Below are positions 2,122 to 63,865 of a DNA stretch of 64,000 nt, in pieces; positions within the stretch are counted from its first letter, which is position 1, and each line of letters begins with the position of its first letter. Under the pieces are notes generated by a model. That model saw only the letters and a program-made list of their open reading frames with translations. It was not told where the DNA came from and did not search any database. The stretch spans positions 5,890,001-5,954,000 of the forward strand of contig NZ_CP134609.1 of NCBI RefSeq assembly GCF_031844705.1, read 5' to 3'. The translations under genes and the position numbers were made by a program. The stretch comes from Streptomyces sp. ITFR-16 (lineage in GTDB: Bacteria; Actinomycetota; Actinomycetes; Streptomycetales; Streptomycetaceae).

Positions 2122-2667
2122 TCAGGCGAACGCGGCCAGTTGGGGGTCGACGGGCGCGTCCGTCATCCGGTTGGCCAGTGTCGACATGGTGTAGGCGCCG
2201 ATGCCCAGGACCACTTCCAGCGCGTTGCGGGAGGTGTGGCCGTGCGCCAGGAAGGCGTCGAGCGCGGCGTCGTCGACGGCCCCGTTGGTCGCGAGCACCG
2301 CGAGGGTGAACTGCCGTACCGCCTCCAGCCGTTCGTCCGGCAGCGGGTTCCCGTCGCGGAGTGCGGCGAGGAGGGCGGCGTCCGCGTCGAGCGCGGTGAG
2401 CCTGGCGGTGTGCATCGCCACGCAGAGGTGGCAGCCGTTGCGGGTGGCCATCGTCATGATCACGACCTCCCGGGCGAGCGGGTCCAGGGTGGTCGACTCG
2501 AAGAGCGCGCTCACCTTCAGGAAGCCGTTGAGCAGCTCCGGCGCCGAGGCGAGCCGGGTGACGCCGACGGGCAGGTAGCCCTGCTTCCGCTCCACGGCGG
2601 CCATGGTGGCGCGGGCGGCGGCGGGGGCGGATTCGAGGGTGTGGTCGGGAAAGCGGGTCACGGACAT
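2122..2667 (-). CDS. AhpD-like carboxymuconolactone decarboxylase-family protein
   Basis: A 181-residue protein with the AhpD/CMD core: a CHLCVAMH stretch (CxxC followed by His three residues later) in a helical fold. Family members are peroxidases or reductases that use the CxxC pair as redox centre. The ATG at 2667 is chosen because GAGAGG lies 7 bases upstream and the protein then starts as expected. It is divergent from the MarR gene at 2739 and the two share an inverted repeat, so expression is probably MarR-controlled and may answer oxidants or reactive phenolics. The substrate is unknown. Confidence 0.85.
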   Translation of the reverse strand: MSVTRFPDHTLESAPAAARATMAAVERKQGYLPVGVTRLASAPELLNGFLKVSALFESTTLDPLAREVVIMTMATRNGCHLCVAMHTARLTALDADAALLAALRDGNPLPDERLEAVRQFTLAVLATNGAVDDAALDAFLAHGHTSRNALEVVLGIGAYTMSTLANRMTDAPVDPQLAAFA

Positions 2668-2686
2668 GAGGGACGCCTCTCGCGGT

Positions 2687-2734
2687 AAACTCGACAACGT
2701 GATTGACGAAAACGTAAACCAGGTTGTCGAGTTT
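2687..2734. promoter_or_regulatory. MarR-type operator between AhpD-like and MarR genes
   Basis: A perfect inverted repeat: AAACTCGACAAC (2687-2698) and GTTGTCGAGTTT (2723-2734) separated by 24 bases. A TTGACG hexamer at 2703-2708 lies in the spacer and could be a -35 element for the rightward gene. The right arm ends only 4 bases before the MarR ATG, so a bound repressor would block both promoters. Assignment to the adjacent MarR protein is by position. Confidence 0.72.
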
Positions 2735-2738
2735 CGCA

Positions 2739-3242
2739 ATGGCTGAGCGAGGAGGTGCGGCCCCGGCACAGGCCGCGGAGGCGCCCGGCGCGGGCTTCGA
2801 GCTGCCCCTGCTGCTGTTCGCCGGATTCCGGTCGGTCATCGACGCGCTGCACCGCGAACTGGCCGAGCAGGGCCACCCCGACATGCGCCCGGCATACGGG
2901 TACGCGCTTCAGGCGGTGGGCTGGGACGGGTCGACCGCCAGTGAGATCGGCCGCCGGCTCGGCGTCTCCAAGCAGGCCGCGGGCAAGACCGTCGAGAAGC
3001 TGGAGGCCCTCGGCTACGTGGAGCGCGTCGACGATCCGCACGACGGCCGCCGCAAGCTCGTCCGGCTGTCCCCGCGCGGGGCCGACGTGCTCGCCCGGTC
3101 CGCCGAGGGCTTCGACCGGCTGCGGGCCGAGTGGGTCCGCGCGCTCGGGGCCGAGCGCGTCCGCGCCCTGGAGTCCGACCTGCGCACGATGGTCCCGGCG
3201 GACACCTTCCGGCTCGATGTCGCGGCCTGGTTCAACGGCTGA
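2739..3242 (+). CDS. MarR-family transcriptional regulator
   Basis: A 167-residue winged-helix regulator. The recognition-helix region (TASEIGRRLGVSKQAAGKTVEKLE) and the wing with DPHDGRRK are typical of MarR. The ATG at 2739 is preferred, but there is no ribosome site before it; an in-frame TTG at 2724 lies inside the operator arm. A leaderless message starting at the ATG would explain both facts. It is transcribed away from the AhpD-like gene and probably represses both. The ligand is unknown; AhpD/MarR pairs commonly respond to oxidants or phenolic compounds. Confidence 0.88.
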   Translation: MAERGGAAPAQAAEAPGAGFELPLLLFAGFRSVIDALHRELAEQGHPDMRPAYGYALQAVGWDGSTASEIGRRLGVSKQAAGKTVEKLEALGYVERVDDPHDGRRKLVRLSPRGADVLARSAEGFDRLRAEWVRALGAERVRALESDLRTMVPADTFRLDVAAWFNG

Positions 3243-3386
3243 CCGCAGCGGTCCGGCTTGGACTTTACGCATGAGAGATAGGACGTATGTCACGCGCACC
3301 CTTCCCGGGTGCCCCTCCTTGCGGCACCATGCACGCGTCGGTACCCAAGAGATCGGACCACTCGTGGTCGCGAATGGGAGGGAACC

Positions 3387-11542: not shown

Positions 11543-12676
11543 TCACAGCTCCCGGTGCCGCAGCAGCGACTCGAATCCGGCGGCCCGGATCCGCGCCCTC
11601 AGCTCCTTCTCACCGGTGCCCAGGGCCTGCGCGGCGAGCGGCAGCCGCCAGTCCGCGTCGTCCAGCCGGTGCAGCAGATGGCCGCGCCGGACCTGCGCCT
11701 CGGAGAGCCGGAACGTCTTCAGATAGGCGACCTGCCCCTTGTGGTCGGTGATCGTCTCGCCGATGTGCTGCCCGCCCCGGTCGCGCAGGAACGGCGGCAG
11801 GAACCGCCACAGTGTGAACGCCCCCATCCGGTACACCCGCTCGAAGCCGTACGAGCTGTCCAGCAGCTCCCGCGCGAACAGGGTGTCGTGCGCCTCGGCC
11901 CACTCCCGCTCCTGCTCCCGCGCGGCCGCCCGCAGCGCGGCGAGCGTCCGCAGCCCGGGCCCGTCCGCGATCCGCGCCCCGAACTCCGGCACCGGCGCCC
12001 CGTACATCGCGTACTGGTGGACCAGCTCCCCGTACAGGTCCTCGATCAGCGTCGGGTGGAGCAGCCGGTAGTCGCCGGGATGCGGCACCACGAAGGCGGC
12101 GGCGAGCGTGTCGGCGGCGTAGACCATCACCCCGCACTGTCCGGGGTGGATCTCGAAGGTGCGCAGCGCGTCCCCGAGCCCGCGCACCGACCACCCCATG
12201 TACGCGTCCTCGCCGCGCGGCGAGAGCCCGTCGCGCAGCGCCCGGCGCGACCACTCCTCCCAGGCGGTCGACGGACCGCCGAAGTGCAGCGCGAGATAGC
12301 CCTCCAGCGCCAGATGCAGCGGCAGGAAGCGCAGCCGGTCCCCGGGCTGCCGCTTGGCCAGCCGGTGGTGGCGGTGGCGCGGCAGCTTCATCGTCCGGGG
12401 CGGGGCACCCTCGCCGCCGGGCCCGGCCAGCTGCGTACCGTACGTGGCCGAGCGCGCCCCCTCGCCCGACCAGTCGGCGACGAACCCGTGCGGGATGTAC
12501 GAGGTGTAGTGGGCACGCGGACCCACCTCGACCACCGCCGGACCGTCCGCCGCGTACACCTCGCGGTGCAGGCGGAGTCCCTCGACCGGCTTCTCCCGCA
12601 CCAGCGGCACCAGCCGGATCCCGCCCCACACCTGGGCCGGGCGGGCGGTGAGACCGTTCAGTTCGAGCCTGTTCAC
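11543..12676 (-). CDS. unknown protein coupled to the vWA gene
   Basis: A 377-residue cytoplasmic protein with no signal peptide or membrane helix and no family I recognise with confidence. It has several conserved-looking aromatic and His motifs (HYTSYIPHGFV, HFGGPS near residue 130, GQHIGETITDHKGQVAYLKTF near 300). It starts with a GTG whose bases overlap the TGA of the vWA gene (GTGA, 12673-12676), so the two are translated as a unit. It may correspond to the ARPP-type domains reported beside RNA-repair and conflict genes, but that is from memory and unverified. glnII follows 134 bp downstream with its own promoter region. Confidence 0.7.
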   Translation of the reverse strand: MNRLELNGLTARPAQVWGGIRLVPLVREKPVEGLRLHREVYAADGPAVVEVGPRAHYTSYIPHGFVADWSGEGARSATYGTQLAGPGGEGAPPRTMKLPRHRHHRLAKRQPGDRLRFLPLHLALEGYLALHFGGPSTAWEEWSRRALRDGLSPRGEDAYMGWSVRGLGDALRTFEIHPGQCGVMVYAADTLAAAFVVPHPGDYRLLHPTLIEDLYGELVHQYAMYGAPVPEFGARIADGPGLRTLAALRAAAREQEREWAEAHDTLFARELLDSSYGFERVYRMGAFTLWRFLPPFLRDRGGQHIGETITDHKGQVAYLKTFRLSEAQVRRGHLLHRLDDADWRLPLAAQALGTGEKELRARIRAAGFESLLRHREL

Positions 12677-14145
12677 CGCGCGCCTCCCGGCCGTCCGTCG
12701 TCCACGAACCGGGCGACCTGCCGGTCCAGATAGGCGTGCAGCTCGGCGGGGCCGGTGCGCCCCTCGGAGAACTGGGCGATCTCCACCAGCGCCGGCAGGT
12801 CCTCGGCATCCCGGATGCCGGCCGTCGGCACGCTAGGGGACAGCCGCCGGACGTCGAAACCGGCCGCGTCGTATACAGGGTTCACATGCACCACGGCGGT
12901 GCGCCGGTCCGGATCCAGCCGGGTCCGCCACACCCGCAGCACCTCGCCCGCGAGCCCCGGCGGGGCGTTGTCCCAGCCGTCCGAGACGATGACCAGCCGC
13001 TCCGGGCCGTGCCCGAGCGCGTCCAGGATCCGGGTGCCCAGCGGGGTCGGCCCCGACGGCCCGACCAGCAGCGGATCGCGCGCACCCGAGGTCCACAGCG
13101 GAACGCACGCGCCGGGCGCCGCCAGCGCCTCCAGCAGGAAGTGGCAGGCCAGCGCCACGGCGAGCGGCCGGCGCCGCTTCTCGCCGGAGCCCGACGAGGA
13201 GTAGCTGTCGTCCAGGACCGCCGCGACCCGCCCCCAGCTCCCGGCGTGCGGCCCGGCCGCGCGACGGGCCGAGGCGCGCAGCGCCGGCACCAGCTCCGCG
13301 CGATGACGGCCGCGCGCCTCCCGCTCCAGCGACAGGACGTACAGGGCGAGCCGGGTCAGCGGCATCACGGTCAGATCGACGCCCCCGGGCAGCTCTGCCG
13401 GGTCCGCCACCGTGCGCCGGCCCTGGGTGCGCAGCCGCTCCAGCCGCGTCATCCGGGGCACCATCCGCGCCACGAACGCCTCGCGCTTCATACCGTGCCG
13501 CGCCGCGAAGCCCTCGGCGACGGTGAAGGGCAGCTCGTCGACGGCACCCTGCTCGTAGTGGGCCCGGCGCCAGGCGTCGAGCAGCCGGTGCTCGTAACGC
13601 GGCAGCTTCCCCGGCCGGAACAGGAACGCGCCCAGCTCGCCGTCGGGCGCGGTGCCGCCGTCGAGCCGCAGATGGGCGTGGCGCGCGGCTGTCTTCAGGC
13701 CCGCGCGGTACTTCACCGCGTCGTGCGCCGGATCCGGCCGCGCCGCCAGCCAGTCGCGCATGATCGCCCGGGTGCGCCGGTTGTTGACCTTGGCCGCCCG
13801 CAGCTCCCGGAACAGCCGGTAGACCCGCTGCGGCGGCAGCTTCGCCAGCCGGGCGGCGATGAGCCGCCCCTCGGTGCGCCTCTCCTCGGCGGACGCGTCG
13901 GCGGCGTGCTCCAGCAGGCCCCGCACGATCCGCACGGCGTTGTGGTCGTTGATGTCCAGGGCGAGCGAAGCCGCGTACACCCGGCGGTAGTTGATCCGTA
14001 CGTACGCGTGCAGGAAGTCCAGCGAGAGCTGCTGGTGCCCGGCGCCGGAGTGGAACTCGCGCTGGCCCGTCGCGGTGACGGCCGCGTTGACGAACAGCAG
14101 CACGTCCTCGGCGGCGATGAGATCGGCGTACGTCTCGGTCGTCAT
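12673..14145 (-). CDS. helical-repeat plus vWA protein, Ro60/TROVE-like layout
   Basis: A 490-residue cytoplasmic protein. The N-terminal ~300 residues are alpha-helical and rich in Arg, with repeats such as FLHAYVRINYRRVYAASLAL. The C-terminal part resembles a von Willebrand A domain: a MIDAS-type DDSYSS motif near residue 315, and VIVSDGWDN as the later metal/edge strand. Helical repeats followed by vWA is the layout of Ro60/TROVE proteins, which bind misfolded or Y RNAs, but I cannot confirm TROVE by eye. The ATG at 14145 has GGGGGACG upstream. It overlaps its partner by 4 bp. A role in RNA quality control or repair is inference. Confidence 0.72.
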   Translation of the reverse strand: MTTETYADLIAAEDVLLFVNAAVTATGQREFHSGAGHQQLSLDFLHAYVRINYRRVYAASLALDINDHNAVRIVRGLLEHAADASAEERRTEGRLIAARLAKLPPQRVYRLFRELRAAKVNNRRTRAIMRDWLAARPDPAHDAVKYRAGLKTAARHAHLRLDGGTAPDGELGAFLFRPGKLPRYEHRLLDAWRRAHYEQGAVDELPFTVAEGFAARHGMKREAFVARMVPRMTRLERLRTQGRRTVADPAELPGGVDLTVMPLTRLALYVLSLEREARGRHRAELVPALRASARRAAGPHAGSWGRVAAVLDDSYSSSGSGEKRRRPLAVALACHFLLEALAAPGACVPLWTSGARDPLLVGPSGPTPLGTRILDALGHGPERLVIVSDGWDNAPPGLAGEVLRVWRTRLDPDRRTAVVHVNPVYDAAGFDVRRLSPSVPTAGIRDAEDLPALVEIAQFSEGRTGPAELHAYLDRQVARFVDDGRPGGAR

Positions 14146-14380
14146 GATGCGTCCCCCGTGGTGTTCCGCGCGGCGGTGCGCGCACACGGAAGCCGGCCGG
14201 GGAATGGGGGCGCGAGCAGCGAAATGTTTGCTTCATAGGCAAGTCCCGGAAGTCGCACCGGAGTCCCGCGGCCGGCCCCGTCAACGTAACCGAACGGCCG
14301 CGCGTCCTGCCACCGCATTCGGCCGGGTACGCGAGGGGAGGGGCGCCCGGGCGGCGGGGCGCACCGGGCACACTGGACCC

Positions 14381-58822: not shown

Positions 58823-61800
58823 TCAGGCGGTCCCGCTGAGCGCCTGGACCATCCGGAGCCACAGCTCGCCGTGCGGGCGGGCGTGCTGGACGCTGAGGGC
58901 GGCGATCTCCCTCAGCAGCCGGGTCCGGGTCTCGTCGGAGGCGCGGGGCAGGAGCGTCGCCAGCTCGTCCGGCACGACGCCCTCGACGGCTCCGGCGAGC
59001 ACCATGCCCGCCTGGGCGTGGGTGAAGGAGGACAGCTTGTCGTCGAAGACCTGCCCCTCGACGGCCGCCGCGTGCAACAGCGCGTTGCCGTCCCCGGCGG
59101 CCAGCGCCCTTTCCACATAGGCCTGGAGAGCGGCGCGGTCCTCGACGATACGGTAGGCGGCGTCCAGCCCTTCCGAGCGGGCGACCTCGATGACGGCGAG
59201 ATGCGCGAGGGGGGTGTCCTCGGGCGGCCGGGCCCGGAGGATGCGCGGGTGGGCCTGGAGGAAGGCCCGGGACTCCGCCCAGGAGGTGCAGTTCACCCAT
59301 TCCGCCGTCTGCTCCGCGAGGATCAGCGGGTCGTAGGCGGCGGTCACGCCGTGGGCGAGGATCGCCTCACGGAGCGCGGTGTGCCGCCGCGCGGTGCGGG
59401 GGTCCAGCAGCGCCAGCTCTTCGAGGGCCGTCGCCGCCCGCTCCTCGCCGAGCGTGTCGGCGTTCTGGGACCAGAAGTCGCGTGACGCGGGCCAGTTGGG
59501 CGCGAACATCCAGGAGCTGACCAGGTCCACGGTCACGGCCGACAGGGTGAGCCAGCCGGGCGCGGGGCCCGAGGTCTCCGCCTCCCACGCGGCGCGCACG
59601 GCCTGCGGGTCGCCATGACCGCGAAGCGCCCGCCGTGCCCGTACGGCCACCAGGTCCGGGCCGTCGTCCGGCCCGGTGCCGGTGCCCCGCGCCAGGAACG
59701 ACACGAGCGCGCGTACGCCCTCCGAGGGGCGGGGAGCGGGGCAGCCCAGCAGGAAGATGTCCCGCTCGGCCCCGAGACGCCGTGCGGTCGCGGGGTGGGC
59801 CTCGGCGAACTCGGCCGCGCACTCCTCGTACGCCTCGATCGCCGAGGCGTGGTCGCCGACGCGGGCGAGGTTCCCGGACAGGTTGGTGAGAGCTGCGACC
59901 AGGTCCGTCGCGAAGGCGCCCGGGTTCTCCAGGGCCAGGGTCCGGTACGCGGCGACCGCCTCCCGCGCCGCGCCCACGGCTCCTTCGCCGTCCTCGTTCA
60001 TCACCAGAAGCCTGCTGAGACCGTGGAGGGCGAGGGCCAGATTGGGCAGGTGGGCGCTGCTGAGTTCGCCGACCAGCTCGCGCAGGATCCGGACGCCCTC
60101 CCCGGCCGGCGCCAGGGAGTCCTTCCGGCTGCCGGTGTCGGCGAGATTGCGGGCCAGGGTGCCGAGTGAGCCGGCGAGCGCGGAGCGGAGAGCGGGCTCG
60201 GGAATCACGAGTTCACGGAAGAGGGCGACGGCCTCCTCCGACGCCCGCAGGCCCGCCGCCGGGTCCCCGGCATGGTTCAGGTGAGCGGCGAGGTTGATGA
60301 GCGCCGTGGCCAGGTCCGGCCGGAAGACGGCGGGCTGCTCCGCGGCGAGATCGCGGCGGATGGCGACCGATTCACGGCCCGCGGCCAGCGCCCCCGAGAC
60401 GTCGCCCAGGGAGGCGCGGTGGTTGCCGAGGTTGTTGAGGGCCGTCGCCAGCTCCGGGAGGAAGGCGTCCGGATCCTCCGTGGCCAGGCGCCCGTAGAGT
60501 GCGGTCGCCTCCTCGGCGTCGGACAGGGCCTCCCCGGGCTCACCCGAGGCGACCAGGTGCATCGCGAGGTTGTTGAGCATCGCGGCCAGCCCCGGGAGGG
60601 ATGCCCTCGGGAGGTCCCGGGCCAGTTCGCGCTGGATGCGGACGGCCTCGCGCGCGAGCAGGACGGCCGACGCCCGGTCGCCCGCGTCGGCCGTCTTGTT
60701 GGCCAGCGAGGTCAGGGACCGGGCGAGATCGGGCTGGAAGGCGTCGGGGTGCTGCGAGGCGAGCCCGGCGAACAGGCGCGCGGCGTCCCGGGCCGTGGTG
60801 AGCGCGCCCTCCCGGTCCCCGGTGGCGGACATCCGGTCCGCCAGGTTGTGCAGTGCGCCCGCCAACTGCGGCTGGAAGGCGGCCGGATGACGTGCGACGA
60901 GTTCCTGGCAGAGCTCCACGGCCTCCCGCGCGGGCGCCAGGCACCCCGCGAGATCACCGACATCCTCCCGGTGCACGGACAGATTGGTCAGGGAGCCGGC
61001 CAGGGAGGACCGCAGGACGGCGGGGTGGCGTTCGGCCACCTTCCGGTTGACCCTGACCGCCTCCTCCGCGTGCGGAAGCGCACTCGCATCGCTTCCGACG
61101 GCCTTGAGGCTGCCGGCCAGATTGGTCAGGGAGGAGGCCAGCGGGGCCAGGAACTCATCGGGGTGCGAAGCGGCCAGCTCGGTGTGGATCTCCACGGCCT
61201 CCCGCGCGGGCGGTACGGCGGCCCGGCGCTGCCCGACGGCCGCCAGACTCACCGCCAGATTGTTCAGCGAGGCGGCGAGCCGCGGGCGGAAGACCGCCGG
61301 GAACTCTTCCGCGAGCCCGCGGTAGATGTCGGCGGCGTCCCGCGTCAGGGTGAGCGCTCCCTCGCGGTCACCGATGTCGTGCAGGCGCCGGCCGAGTGTG
61401 CCGAGGGCGAGGGCCAGGTCGGGAAGGGACGCGCTGCCGCCCGCGTCGGCGATGCCGCGCTGGAGCGCCACCGCCTCACGCGCCGGGACGAGCGCCCCTT
61501 CGAGGTCGCCGATCTCGGCGCACCGGTTGGCGACGTTGATCAGCGTGCGGACCAGCGACGTCGTGCAGGACCCGGGAACGGTCTGCTCCAGCGCCCGGTA
61601 CAGCACCAGGGCCTCCCGCGCGTGCGTCACCGCCGCGTCGAGGTCCCCGTCCGTGCCGAGCCGCTCGGAGAAGTGGCGCAGGGCCTGGGCCAGAACCGGC
61701 ATCGCGCCCGTGACCCGCTCCGCCAGCCCCCGCAGCAGCTCGATGCCCGGCTCACCCGCCTGCGCCGCGTGCCGCGCCAGCCTCCGCACCACGTACGGGT

Positions 61801-63865
61801 CGACCGCTGCCCAGCCGCCGTCCGCCACACGCCGCTCGACGTGCGCGACCAGGGCGGCCGACGCCACCTCTCCGGCCGCGGCGCCTCCGGGCCCGTCCCG
61901 CCCCGCGAGATGGGACACGAACTCCCGGTGGTACAGGCGGTACACCGCCTGTCCGCCCTCCGAGTCCTCGACGATGTAGCGGCCGTAGGCGGACAGCACC
62001 CAGTCCACGTCGCTCTCCTCGTACGGCACCGCGCGGCCGCCCAGCGCGCCGGCGACCTCCTCCCAGACGCCTCCGGCGGGCATGCCGCGCCCGACCGCCC
62101 AGGCCAGTGCGGTCAGCAGGTCCCGGGCGGCGGAAGGCAGTTCGGTGCCGTCGGCCAGGACCCGGACCGGACCCGCCCGCAGGTCGTCCTCGAACGCGGC
62201 CTCGATGGACCCCGGCAGACCGTCCTGCCACCGCTCCTCCTCGGCGACCCGCCCCTCCGCCAGCAGCGAGCCCGTCACCAGCCGGGCGAACAGGAATCCG
62301 CCGCCCCCCGCCGCGGCCCGTGAGGCGACCGCCTCGCCCGCCTCCCGCGCCCGGCCCTCCGGCACACCGGCCGCCGCACACCGGCGGAACACGTACGCGG
62401 CGATGTCCTCCTGGGTGTGCGGCTCCCGCTCGAGGTCCGCAGTGGTGACGCCCGCGCCGATCAGCCGGGCCAGCGCGTCCGGCAGCGTCTCGTCCGCGCG
62501 CCCGTCGTCCGCCAGACGGCTGCGGAACGCGCGTTCGCGGGAGCCGAGCAGCACCGGGACCGTCCGGCTCAGCGGGAAGACCAGCTCCTCGATCATGCCC
62601 TGCAGGTGCTCGGCCGGTACCTCGTCCAGGCCGTCGATGACCAGGACCGGCTGAGGCGACAGCTCCCGCACCTCGGCCCGGAAATCGTCCGTGTTGCGGG
62701 GCCTGTGCAGGCCCAGGGCGCGGGCCAGCCGTGCTGCCGCCTGCACCGGGGTCAGGTCCCGTACGTGCACCGCCGCGAGCGTGCGCTCCGCCCGGACGCC
62801 CGGGTCCGGGTCGCCGTCGCGCAGCGCCCCGTTCTCCACGGCCCGCGCGCGCTGCTCCGGGTCCGCGAGCGTGGCGATACGGCCCAGCACGGCCGACTTC
62901 CCGCAGCCGGCGGGCCCGGTCACCAGGAACAGGCCGGGCGTGCCCTCGTCCATCCAGTCCACGATCCGGCCCAGCACCCCCGTACGGCCGGTGAAGAACC
63001 AGCCCTCCTCCAGGTGGCCGACCCCACGGGCCGCCTGCACCAGGTGCTCCACCAGCCGGGCCGGGGCCCCGGGGGTGTGGAGCGGATTGGGGAAGGCGGG
63101 CCGCCACTCGCCGATGGTGGCGGGGACCGGTGTCTGGCCCTCGCCCTGCCACCGCGTGGCGATGGCGCCCAGCAGGTCGGGGCCGCTGACGAGCGCATTG
63201 TGGTCGCTCCATGCGGAGCGGTACTCGTTGCCGGCCGGACCCGCCTTCAGTACCTCCGCCAGGGCGGCCAGCAGCGGGCCGCTGCCGTCCGAGGTCTCGT
63301 GGCTCTGACAACTCGCGAGGAAGCCGAGCCATTTGGCGTGTCCGGGTGCTGCGGACTCCTCCTCCCAGCGCCCGAGAGCCGTCTCCAGCGCCGGGACCGC
63401 GCCGCCGCCCGCGTAACAGGCGTCGATGATCACCAGTACGTGTTCGGCACCGGAGCCGACGGCTTCGCTGACGAGATCGTCGGCGGTCACGCCGTGCCGC
63501 GTCACCCTCGCCTTCCACTGCCCCGGGTCGTCGGCCGGCTTCAGGTCCGGGAGCACGAGCCGCGTCCGGCCGTCGACGCGCACCCCGTGCCCCGACCAGA
63601 TGACCAGAGCCGGTCTGGAGTCACCCGTGGCAACCCAGCCCTCGGACCACTCCTCGCACTCCGCGCGAAACGCGTCCGCCGAAGGGTCCCCGTCCCCCAC
63701 CTTCCGCGCCTCGTACCCCAACCCCTCCAGCAGCCCCACGATCTCGTCCATCTGGGCCCCGGCCCCCACGAGCCGTGGAAACCTCCCCCCGTCCGCGTAC
63801 TCCTCGCACACCACGCACAGCGCCGTGCCCGCCGGCTTCGGCCGGCCCTCTTCCTCGTGCGTCAT
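58823..63865 (-). CDS. caspase-like/STAND NTPase/TPR protein
   Basis: A 1,680-residue cytoplasmic protein with three recognisable parts. Residues about 12-200: caspase-fold peptidase with His93 in WSGHGV and Cys150 in IIDACYAGGG, the expected catalytic dyad. Residues about 285-560: STAND/NACHT-type P-loop NTPase, Walker A GPAGCGKS (317-324), Walker B VLVIDGLDE (407-415) and LLGSRER after it. Residues about 735-1340: twelve or so TPR-like repeats of ~48 residues (LARSLNNLA..GDREGAL). Residues 1340-1680: alpha-helical, unassigned. The plan is sensor (TPR), switch (NTPase) and effector (protease), as in prokaryotic conflict and programmed-death systems. It starts 2 bp after an upstream gene. Substrate and trigger are unknown. 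Confidence 0.9.
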   Translation of the reverse strand: MTHEEEGRPKPAGTALCVVCEEYADGGRFPRLVGAGAQMDEIVGLLEGLGYEARKVGDGDPSADAFRAECEEWSEGWVATGDSRPALVIWSGHGVRVDGRTRLVLPDLKPADDPGQWKARVTRHGVTADDLVSEAVGSGAEHVLVIIDACYAGGGAVPALETALGRWEEESAAPGHAKWLGFLASCQSHETSDGSGPLLAALAEVLKAGPAGNEYRSAWSDHNALVSGPDLLGAIATRWQGEGQTPVPATIGEWRPAFPNPLHTPGAPARLVEHLVQAARGVGHLEEGWFFTGRTGVLGRIVDWMDEGTPGLFLVTGPAGCGKSAVLGRIATLADPEQRARAVENGALRDGDPDPGVRAERTLAAVHVRDLTPVQAAARLARALGLHRPRNTDDFRAEVRELSPQPVLVIDGLDEVPAEHLQGMIEELVFPLSRTVPVLLGSRERAFRSRLADDGRADETLPDALARLIGAGVTTADLEREPHTQEDIAAYVFRRCAAAGVPEGRAREAGEAVASRAAAGGGGFLFARLVTGSLLAEGRVAEEERWQDGLPGSIEAAFEDDLRAGPVRVLADGTELPSAARDLLTALAWAVGRGMPAGGVWEEVAGALGGRAVPYEESDVDWVLSAYGRYIVEDSEGGQAVYRLYHREFVSHLAGRDGPGGAAAGEVASAALVAHVERRVADGGWAAVDPYVVRRLARHAAQAGEPGIELLRGLAERVTGAMPVLAQALRHFSERLGTDGDLDAAVTHAREALVLYRALEQTVPGSCTTSLVRTLINVANRCAEIGDLEGALVPAREAVALQRGIADAGGSASLPDLALALGTLGRRLHDIGDREGALTLTRDAADIYRGLAEEFPAVFRPRLAASLNNLAVSLAAVGQRRAAVPPAREAVEIHTELAASHPDEFLAPLASSLTNLAGSLKAVGSDASALPHAEEAVRVNRKVAERHPAVLRSSLAGSLTNLSVHREDVGDLAGCLAPAREAVELCQELVARHPAAFQPQLAGALHNLADRMSATGDREGALTTARDAARLFAGLASQHPDAFQPDLARSLTSLANKTADAGDRASAVLLAREAVRIQRELARDLPRASLPGLAAMLNNLAMHLVASGEPGEALSDAEEATALYGRLATEDPDAFLPELATALNNLGNHRASLGDVSGALAAGRESVAIRRDLAAEQPAVFRPDLATALINLAAHLNHAGDPAAGLRASEEAVALFRELVIPEPALRSALAGSLGTLARNLADTGSRKDSLAPAGEGVRILRELVGELSSAHLPNLALALHGLSRLLVMNEDGEGAVGAAREAVAAYRTLALENPGAFATDLVAALTNLSGNLARVGDHASAIEAYEECAAEFAEAHPATARRLGAERDIFLLGCPAPRPSEGVRALVSFLARGTGTGPDDGPDLVAVRARRALRGHGDPQAVRAAWEAETSGPAPGWLTLSAVTVDLVSSWMFAPNWPASRDFWSQNADTLGEERAATALEELALLDPRTARRHTALREAILAHGVTAAYDPLILAEQTAEWVNCTSWAESRAFLQAHPRILRARPPEDTPLAHLAVIEVARSEGLDAAYRIVEDRAALQAYVERALAAGDGNALLHAAAVEGQVFDDKLSSFTHAQAGMVLAGAVEGVVPDELATLLPRASDETRTRLLREIAALSVQHARPHGELWLRMVQALSGTA

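Follow-up and report, generated by a model that had tools for sequence, protein, structure and literature searches.

A candidate RNA-protein-enzyme cassette in Streptomyces: a divergent Ro60-like protein, an ARPP-2 partner and a Y-RNA-like structured RNA

What might two overlapping genes do together when the first seems to encode a relative of the RNA-binding protein Ro60 and the second an uncharacterised partner? The pair lies within a 64,000-nucleotide stretch of the Streptomyces sp. ITFR-16 genome (contig NZ_CP134609.1, positions 5,890,001 to 5,954,000), referred to here as the window. A first-pass annotation had described a strictly coupled pair next to glnII, with a Ro60/TROVE-like first protein and an unrecognised second one, and had suggested an RNA-quality or RNA-repair module with no RtcB ligase beside it. 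Both open reading frames were found on the minus strand where that annotation had placed them, sharing the GTGA that it had noted (Table 1). The largest open reading frame of the window is a single predicted one of 1680 aa (58823-63865, minus strand). Ro60 proteins carry Y RNA on the outside and take up misfolded RNA in their cavity. Bacterial Ro60 proteins with Y RNAs are found in RNA-repair operons; in Salmonella, Rsr and Y RNAs are encoded in one operon with RtcB and RtcA, and in Deinococcus, Rsr is tethered to PNPase by a Y RNA (PMC7790460). In vertebrates Ro60 recognises a helix of 7 bp from which one cytidine bulges, and the part of bacterial Y RNAs bound by Rsr is their lower stem (PMC4726728).

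Table 1. Features of the Ro60-like/ARPP-2 locus, in window positions
Feature	Position	Strand	Details and basis
Ro60-like/vWA gene	12673-14145	minus	490 aa, ATG start at 14145; ORF list
ARPP-2 gene	11543-12676	minus	377 aa, GTG start; ORF list and Pfam
GTGA overlap of the Ro60-like and ARPP-2 genes	12673-12676	minus	sequence; translational-coupling geometry
GGGGGA, likely ribosome-binding site of the Ro60-like gene	14152-14157	minus	inferred from sequence
Y-RNA-like structured RNA, 85 nt	14192-14276	minus	conservation, covariation, covariance-model searches
TACGTT, -10-like box (TAnnnT)	14283-14288	minus	12 nt upstream of the RNA stem; inferred
ARPP-2 C-terminal Fis/NtrC-type HTH-like region, residues 323-368	11573-11710	minus	tentative, model-based

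The 490-aa protein matched nothing in the Pfam and NCBIfam profiles, neither TROVE nor vWA, and its N-terminus matched no non-RNA-binding family either; PADLOC gave no match, and no Ro60 was found by phmmer and hmmsearch against PDB sequences. An AlphaFold model (mean pLDDT 81.5), computed from a shallow alignment of 30 window-family sequences of at least 67% identity, comprises helices to residue 300 (TROVE-like from about residue 10) followed by an alpha/beta domain of the vWA type at residues 302-465; the predicted helical N-terminus covers about residues 42-300. When the model was compared with the PDB by Foldseek, ranks 1-7 were all Ro60/Rsr, headed by Deinococcus Rsr (2nvo, E 9.3e-7), and the first unrelated proteins appeared only at E 0.026. 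VIA-align placed 399-403 residues on a TROVE domain (9kop) and on the Ro60 of Thermus phage phiLo (9l5y) with Z 16.1 and an rmsd of 4.8-4.9, these being the best structural matches at an identity of just 12-13%, whereas the best vWA-only match reached Z 12.6; the global TM to Ro60 structures is about 0.4-0.55.

Conserved residues were found in both halves of the protein. The vWA motif reads DDSYSS...T...SDG, and the MIDAS is complete, with D312, S314, S316, T367 and D389 unchanged down to 22% identity; the basic motifs NNxR (121-124) and KYR (145-147), and likewise R54 and H156, are kept without change all the way from Streptomyces to the 24%-identical protein of a phage. Against canonical Streptomyces TROVE proteins, hhalign aligned the vWA half alone, with the MIDAS in register and a probability of at most 42%, and at the thresholds used PF05731 (TROVE) matched none of the Ro60-like proteins of the window, Nostoc, Alkaliphilus or the phage. 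The kinship with Ro60 is thus visible by structure comparison, and from the sequence only weakly and in the vWA part. The Ro60/TROVE plan proposed at first reading, a helical-repeat N-terminus and a vWA domain with a DxSxS-type motif, was borne out on the predicted model, with a HEAT-like helical toroid ahead of the vWA domain, and this supports regarding the 490-aa protein as a highly divergent relative of Ro60, hidden at the sequence level and matched over its full length in predicted structure. A search of the same genome with PF05731 found no canonical TROVE gene; such a gene is present in 35 of the 60 genomes sampled from the order.

The partner, which the first-pass annotation had called unrecognised, proved to belong to a named though uncharacterised family: the ARPP profile check identified it as Pfam PF22549 ARPP-2 (417.7 bits, cutoff 27; E 2.3e-125), and the match spans all of profile positions 1-278 of 278 and residues 4-285 of the protein. 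Invariant residues of the family are H63, E175, Q180, D202, R204, H207, D213 and E217. Cys181, next to the invariant Gln180, is replaced by Val in Nostoc; these two residues may correspond to the absolutely conserved, proposed catalytic Cys and Gln of ARPP-1. Because Cys181 varies, a cysteine-based mechanism should not be presumed. ARPP-2 is probably a sugar-acting enzyme. The AlphaFold model of its core is unreliable (pLDDT 51), and fold matches outside the C-terminus were set aside. The well-predicted C-terminal stretch of about 50 residues superposes 46 of 46 residues on 4l5e (rmsd 1.6, Z 3.7) and has a weak hmmsearch match to 3e7l (E 1.6); it tentatively resembles a helix-turn-helix (HTH) of the Fis type. 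Weak ARPP-2 matches elsewhere in the phylum look like relatives of ARPP-1. In one genome, G293, a putative WYL-type regulator gene lies near an ARPP-1-like gene (L054:93-1016 and 2264-3322), which fits the published ARPP-WYL neighbourhood.

The coupling of the two genes is close to absolute. In all 80 loci retrieved with the Ro60-like protein the ARPP-2 gene follows directly downstream, in 69 of them with the exact 4-nt overlap, and among 99 Streptomycetales genomes 22 have both the Ro60-like gene and ARPP-2, the only other occurrence being a lone ARPP-2 fragment of 73 profile positions. The strict coupling seen in the single locus therefore held in the co-occurrence check, and the genes are not commonly separated in actinobacteria. 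Their surroundings vary: glnII is a neighbour in Streptomyces alone and not throughout that genus, where most loci have it together with a Gfo/Idh gene; other genes adjoin the pair in family f3, and mixed genes in family f91. As the neighbours change between lineages, the unit consists of just the two genes and the RNA upstream of them. glnII was rejected as a functional partner, since the pair adjoins other genes in other lineages. No rtc genes were recognised among the predicted neighbours, and RtcB/RtcA adjacency is absent; the single RtcB of the genome lies about 1.2 Mb away, in keeping with the earlier remark that no RtcB ligase stands beside the pair.

When the upstream regions were aligned, a noncoding block stood out as much better conserved than the sequence around it; in the window it ends 46 nt before the start codon of the Ro60-like gene. 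It occurs upstream of pairs in Streptomyces, family f3, Actinomadura and Saccharopolyspora, and on Nostoc plasmids. Single-sequence folds have paired ends (z-scores from -1.9 to -4.8), and RNAalifold on 64 sequences gave a closing stem of 8 bp, one unpaired C (position 14268 in the window), a 4-bp stem, an internal loop and an inner stem of 7 bp. Two-sided changes that keep pairing were found at 9 of 19 pairs of this set. Pairing was observed at 98.8%, a value that none of 500 shuffles matched, nor did any match the double-change or covariation scores, and it fell to 37-59% when the partner was slid by 1-3 columns. In a more diverse set of 20 RNAs (nine of them from family f91 loci, one already in the 64-sequence set) pairing of the closing helix was preserved at 99.6%, and both bases had changed in 6 of its 12 pairs. 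The bulged base is a C or, in five family f91 copies, a U, and in Nostoc the stem ACTGTTT/GAACAGT stands in for GCCGGCC/GGCCGGC. The RNA structure is under selection.

The motif TAnnnT stands exactly 12 nt upstream of the RNA stem in 68 of the 80 loci, and this -10-like box is the probable promoter of the RNA and the operon, in which case the transcription start would fall at the stem. A sigma-70 consensus scan gave nothing, and no terminator is evident between the RNA and the start codon. A possible inverted repeat (TTCCG...CGGAA) in that interval (14146-14191, minus strand) could be a translational hairpin. The element has no match in Rfam, and ARAGORN found no tRNA-like gene or module in it. 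The RNA model gave only chance-level matches at 20 canonical TROVE loci, by which a general Streptomyces Y RNA was ruled out as the identity of the element.

The RNA is inherited with the proteins. A covariance model found a single copy in every one of the 22 Streptomycetales genomes (of 99) that carry the Ro60-like protein and none in the 77 others (models built from these families favour finding them, and absence elsewhere means absence of close relatives). Class-wide, in 395 genomes, the RNA was found in 18 and ARPP-2 in 19, with 17 common to both, and all three mismatches are broken or fragmentary loci: in G022 there is only a fragment of ARPP-2; in G736 the RNA, the Ro60-like gene and the N-terminus of ARPP-2 have been lost together; and in G715 (L195:4149-6838) the RNA is intact, a transposase gene of the IS605 OrfB type splits the Ro60-like gene, and all that is left of ARPP-2 is its tail. 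At the nine intact family f91 loci the RNA lies directly upstream of the pair (E 3e-11 to 2e-19).

More distant versions were found outside Actinomycetota. Three Nostoc plasmids carry Ro60-like and ARPP-2 genes (about 47% and 40% identical); in two of them genes of the XisH and XisI families lie between the two (L138:10451-11190 and L140:10472-11211), an apparent insertion into the cassette that is absent from the third (L139). On an Alkaliphilus megaplasmid a Ro60-like protein of 24% identity is followed by ARPP-1, and TerD-family, Ro60-like and ARPP-1 (DUF6569) genes stand there in a row, with TerD upstream (L141:7147-11315). The uncultured 462-kb phage LR756500 encodes a Ro60-like protein of 23-27% identity with an ARPP-1 gene 8 nt after it; a Macro gene lies 3.5 kb further on, and R2K ATP-grasp, CYTH and AAA genes are near (L163:5878-8489 and 12021-12599). 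The adjacency of a Ro60-like gene and an ARPP-superfamily gene is thus conserved even where the partner has switched from ARPP-2 to ARPP-1. The RNA covariance model found nothing convincing upstream of the Alkaliphilus and phage pairs, and the RNA therefore does not accompany every member of the protein family. Scans of viral contigs with the window-family, Nostoc and Alkaliphilus proteins gave no match, with the phage protein the sole find was apparently that phage itself, and the RNA core motif was not found in these contigs.

How do these parts compare with known systems? Like bacterial Ro60 (Rsr) with Y RNA/YrlA in Deinococcus, Salmonella and Mycobacterium, the cassette would combine a TROVE-like ring with a vWA domain bearing a MIDAS, as far as the predicted model goes, and next to the protein gene stands a structured RNA of about 85-90 nt whose ends pair and whose closing stem has one bulged pyrimidine. 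Unlike them, it has no Pfam TROVE match and no RtcB/RtcA alongside, it is strictly coupled to ARPP-2, and its RNA is absent from Rfam and has no recognised tRNA-like part. The consensus also differs from the Ro60 site of Y RNAs in having no opposite 3-nt bulge; for this reason, and for want of a tRNA-like gene, we call the element Y-RNA-like and do not class it as a Y RNA. The rsr-yrlBA-rtcBA RNA-repair operon (PMC7790460) likewise unites a Ro60-like protein and a Y-like RNA in one operon, whereas here ARPP-2 occupies the position filled there by the ligase RtcB and the cyclase RtcA, and no RtcR was recognised alongside. For ARPP of family 1 the predicted substrate is ribose from ADP-ribose, and vWA genes may be among the components of its host systems (PMC9503650). 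These ARG-centred systems resemble the cassette in their ARPP-superfamily partner and vWA genes, and the Alkaliphilus and phage pairs use ARPP-1 proper; the cassette differs in lacking ARG or phosphatase genes and in having a vWA protein of Ro60 architecture, a conserved structured RNA, and ARPP-2 instead of ARPP-1. In the literature searched, coverage of which was partial, we found no earlier mention of the protein pair or of the RNA, so a prior mention may exist.

Our preferred reading, to which we give a probability of about 0.62, is a three-part ribonucleoprotein cassette of a Y-RNA-like RNA, a divergent Ro60 ring protein and ARPP-2, the last as a partner in place of RtcB or PNPase. ARPP-2 would be made alongside the ring protein through translational coupling; the ring protein would hold the RNA via the closing stem and the bulged pyrimidine, and its central channel might admit misfolded or damaged RNAs by their single-stranded ends. 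ARPP-2 would dock on the particle and act on the ribose or ADP-ribose part of a captured RNA end, while its HTH-like tail may contact nucleic acid. The unit might serve RNA quality control or repair under stress, an idea already put forward in the first-pass annotation and strengthened by the conserved element directly upstream. The cassette may in this way do a job like that of the Rsr/Y RNA particles of other bacteria, with neither RtcB nor PNPase encoded alongside. Lying in the operon leader, the RNA may also tune the synthesis of both proteins.

A serious rival, which we regard as possible rather than probable, makes the RNA a cis-acting leader only, an autoregulatory site or riboswitch through which the Ro60-like protein or a ligand limits its own synthesis, while the proteins act on other RNAs. 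The element is indeed single-copy, always directly upstream and on the same strand, and no terminator precedes the start codon 46 nt on; but a stem that closes the ends and carries a single bulged pyrimidine is the layout of a Ro60 site, and with the -10-like box the 5' end would probably coincide with the stem, as it would in a small RNA that exists on its own. It is unlikely that the vWA protein is a peptide-binding chaperone and that ARPP-2 processes ADP-ribose on proteins, which would make the pair a pared-down version of the ARG-centred systems, whose proposed task is to reverse viral ADP-ribosylation. Co-occurrence of ARPP and vWA genes in those systems (PMC9503650) speaks for it, as do the Macro gene near the phage locus and the TerD gene at the Alkaliphilus locus, whereas the vWA protein is not a lone vWA and has, on the model, a full Ro60-like architecture, a structured RNA is co-inherited with the pair, and no ARG, rhodanese-phosphatase, Nudix or WYL gene was recognised beside the pair in the window. 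We think it very improbable that the two proteins form a transcription regulator pair binding DNA or tRNA fragments, with ARPP-2 acting through its Fis-type HTH: the HTH-like region at its C-terminus would suit this, but that match is weak, the neighbouring genes are not conserved, and the bulk of ARPP-2 forms a conserved domain of its own, in which many polar residues are invariant.

Beyond this locus, the cassette may represent an unrecognised class of Ro60 ribonucleoproteins, found in several families of actinobacteria, on plasmids of cyanobacteria and a megaplasmid of a clostridium, and in a huge phage, in which a Ro60 invisible to sequence searches is joined to an ARPP and, in Actinomycetota and Nostoc, to an uncatalogued Y-RNA-like RNA of its own; we consider the odds on this to be evenly balanced. 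To our knowledge, the roles of bacterial Ro60 particles beyond the Deinococcus PNPase complex are largely open. If the preferred reading is true, the ARPP subunit would be a built-in RNA-end or ADP-ribose-RNA processing activity of a Ro60 particle, and the ARPP superfamily would gain a concrete substrate hypothesis, namely an RNA end held by Ro60. The element would add a structured RNA family that is missing from Rfam and beyond the reach of TROVE profile searches, and a minimal RNA-protein-enzyme cassette in a genetically tractable and non-pathogenic Streptomyces would allow direct tests of the RNA bulge, the ring and the coupled enzyme.
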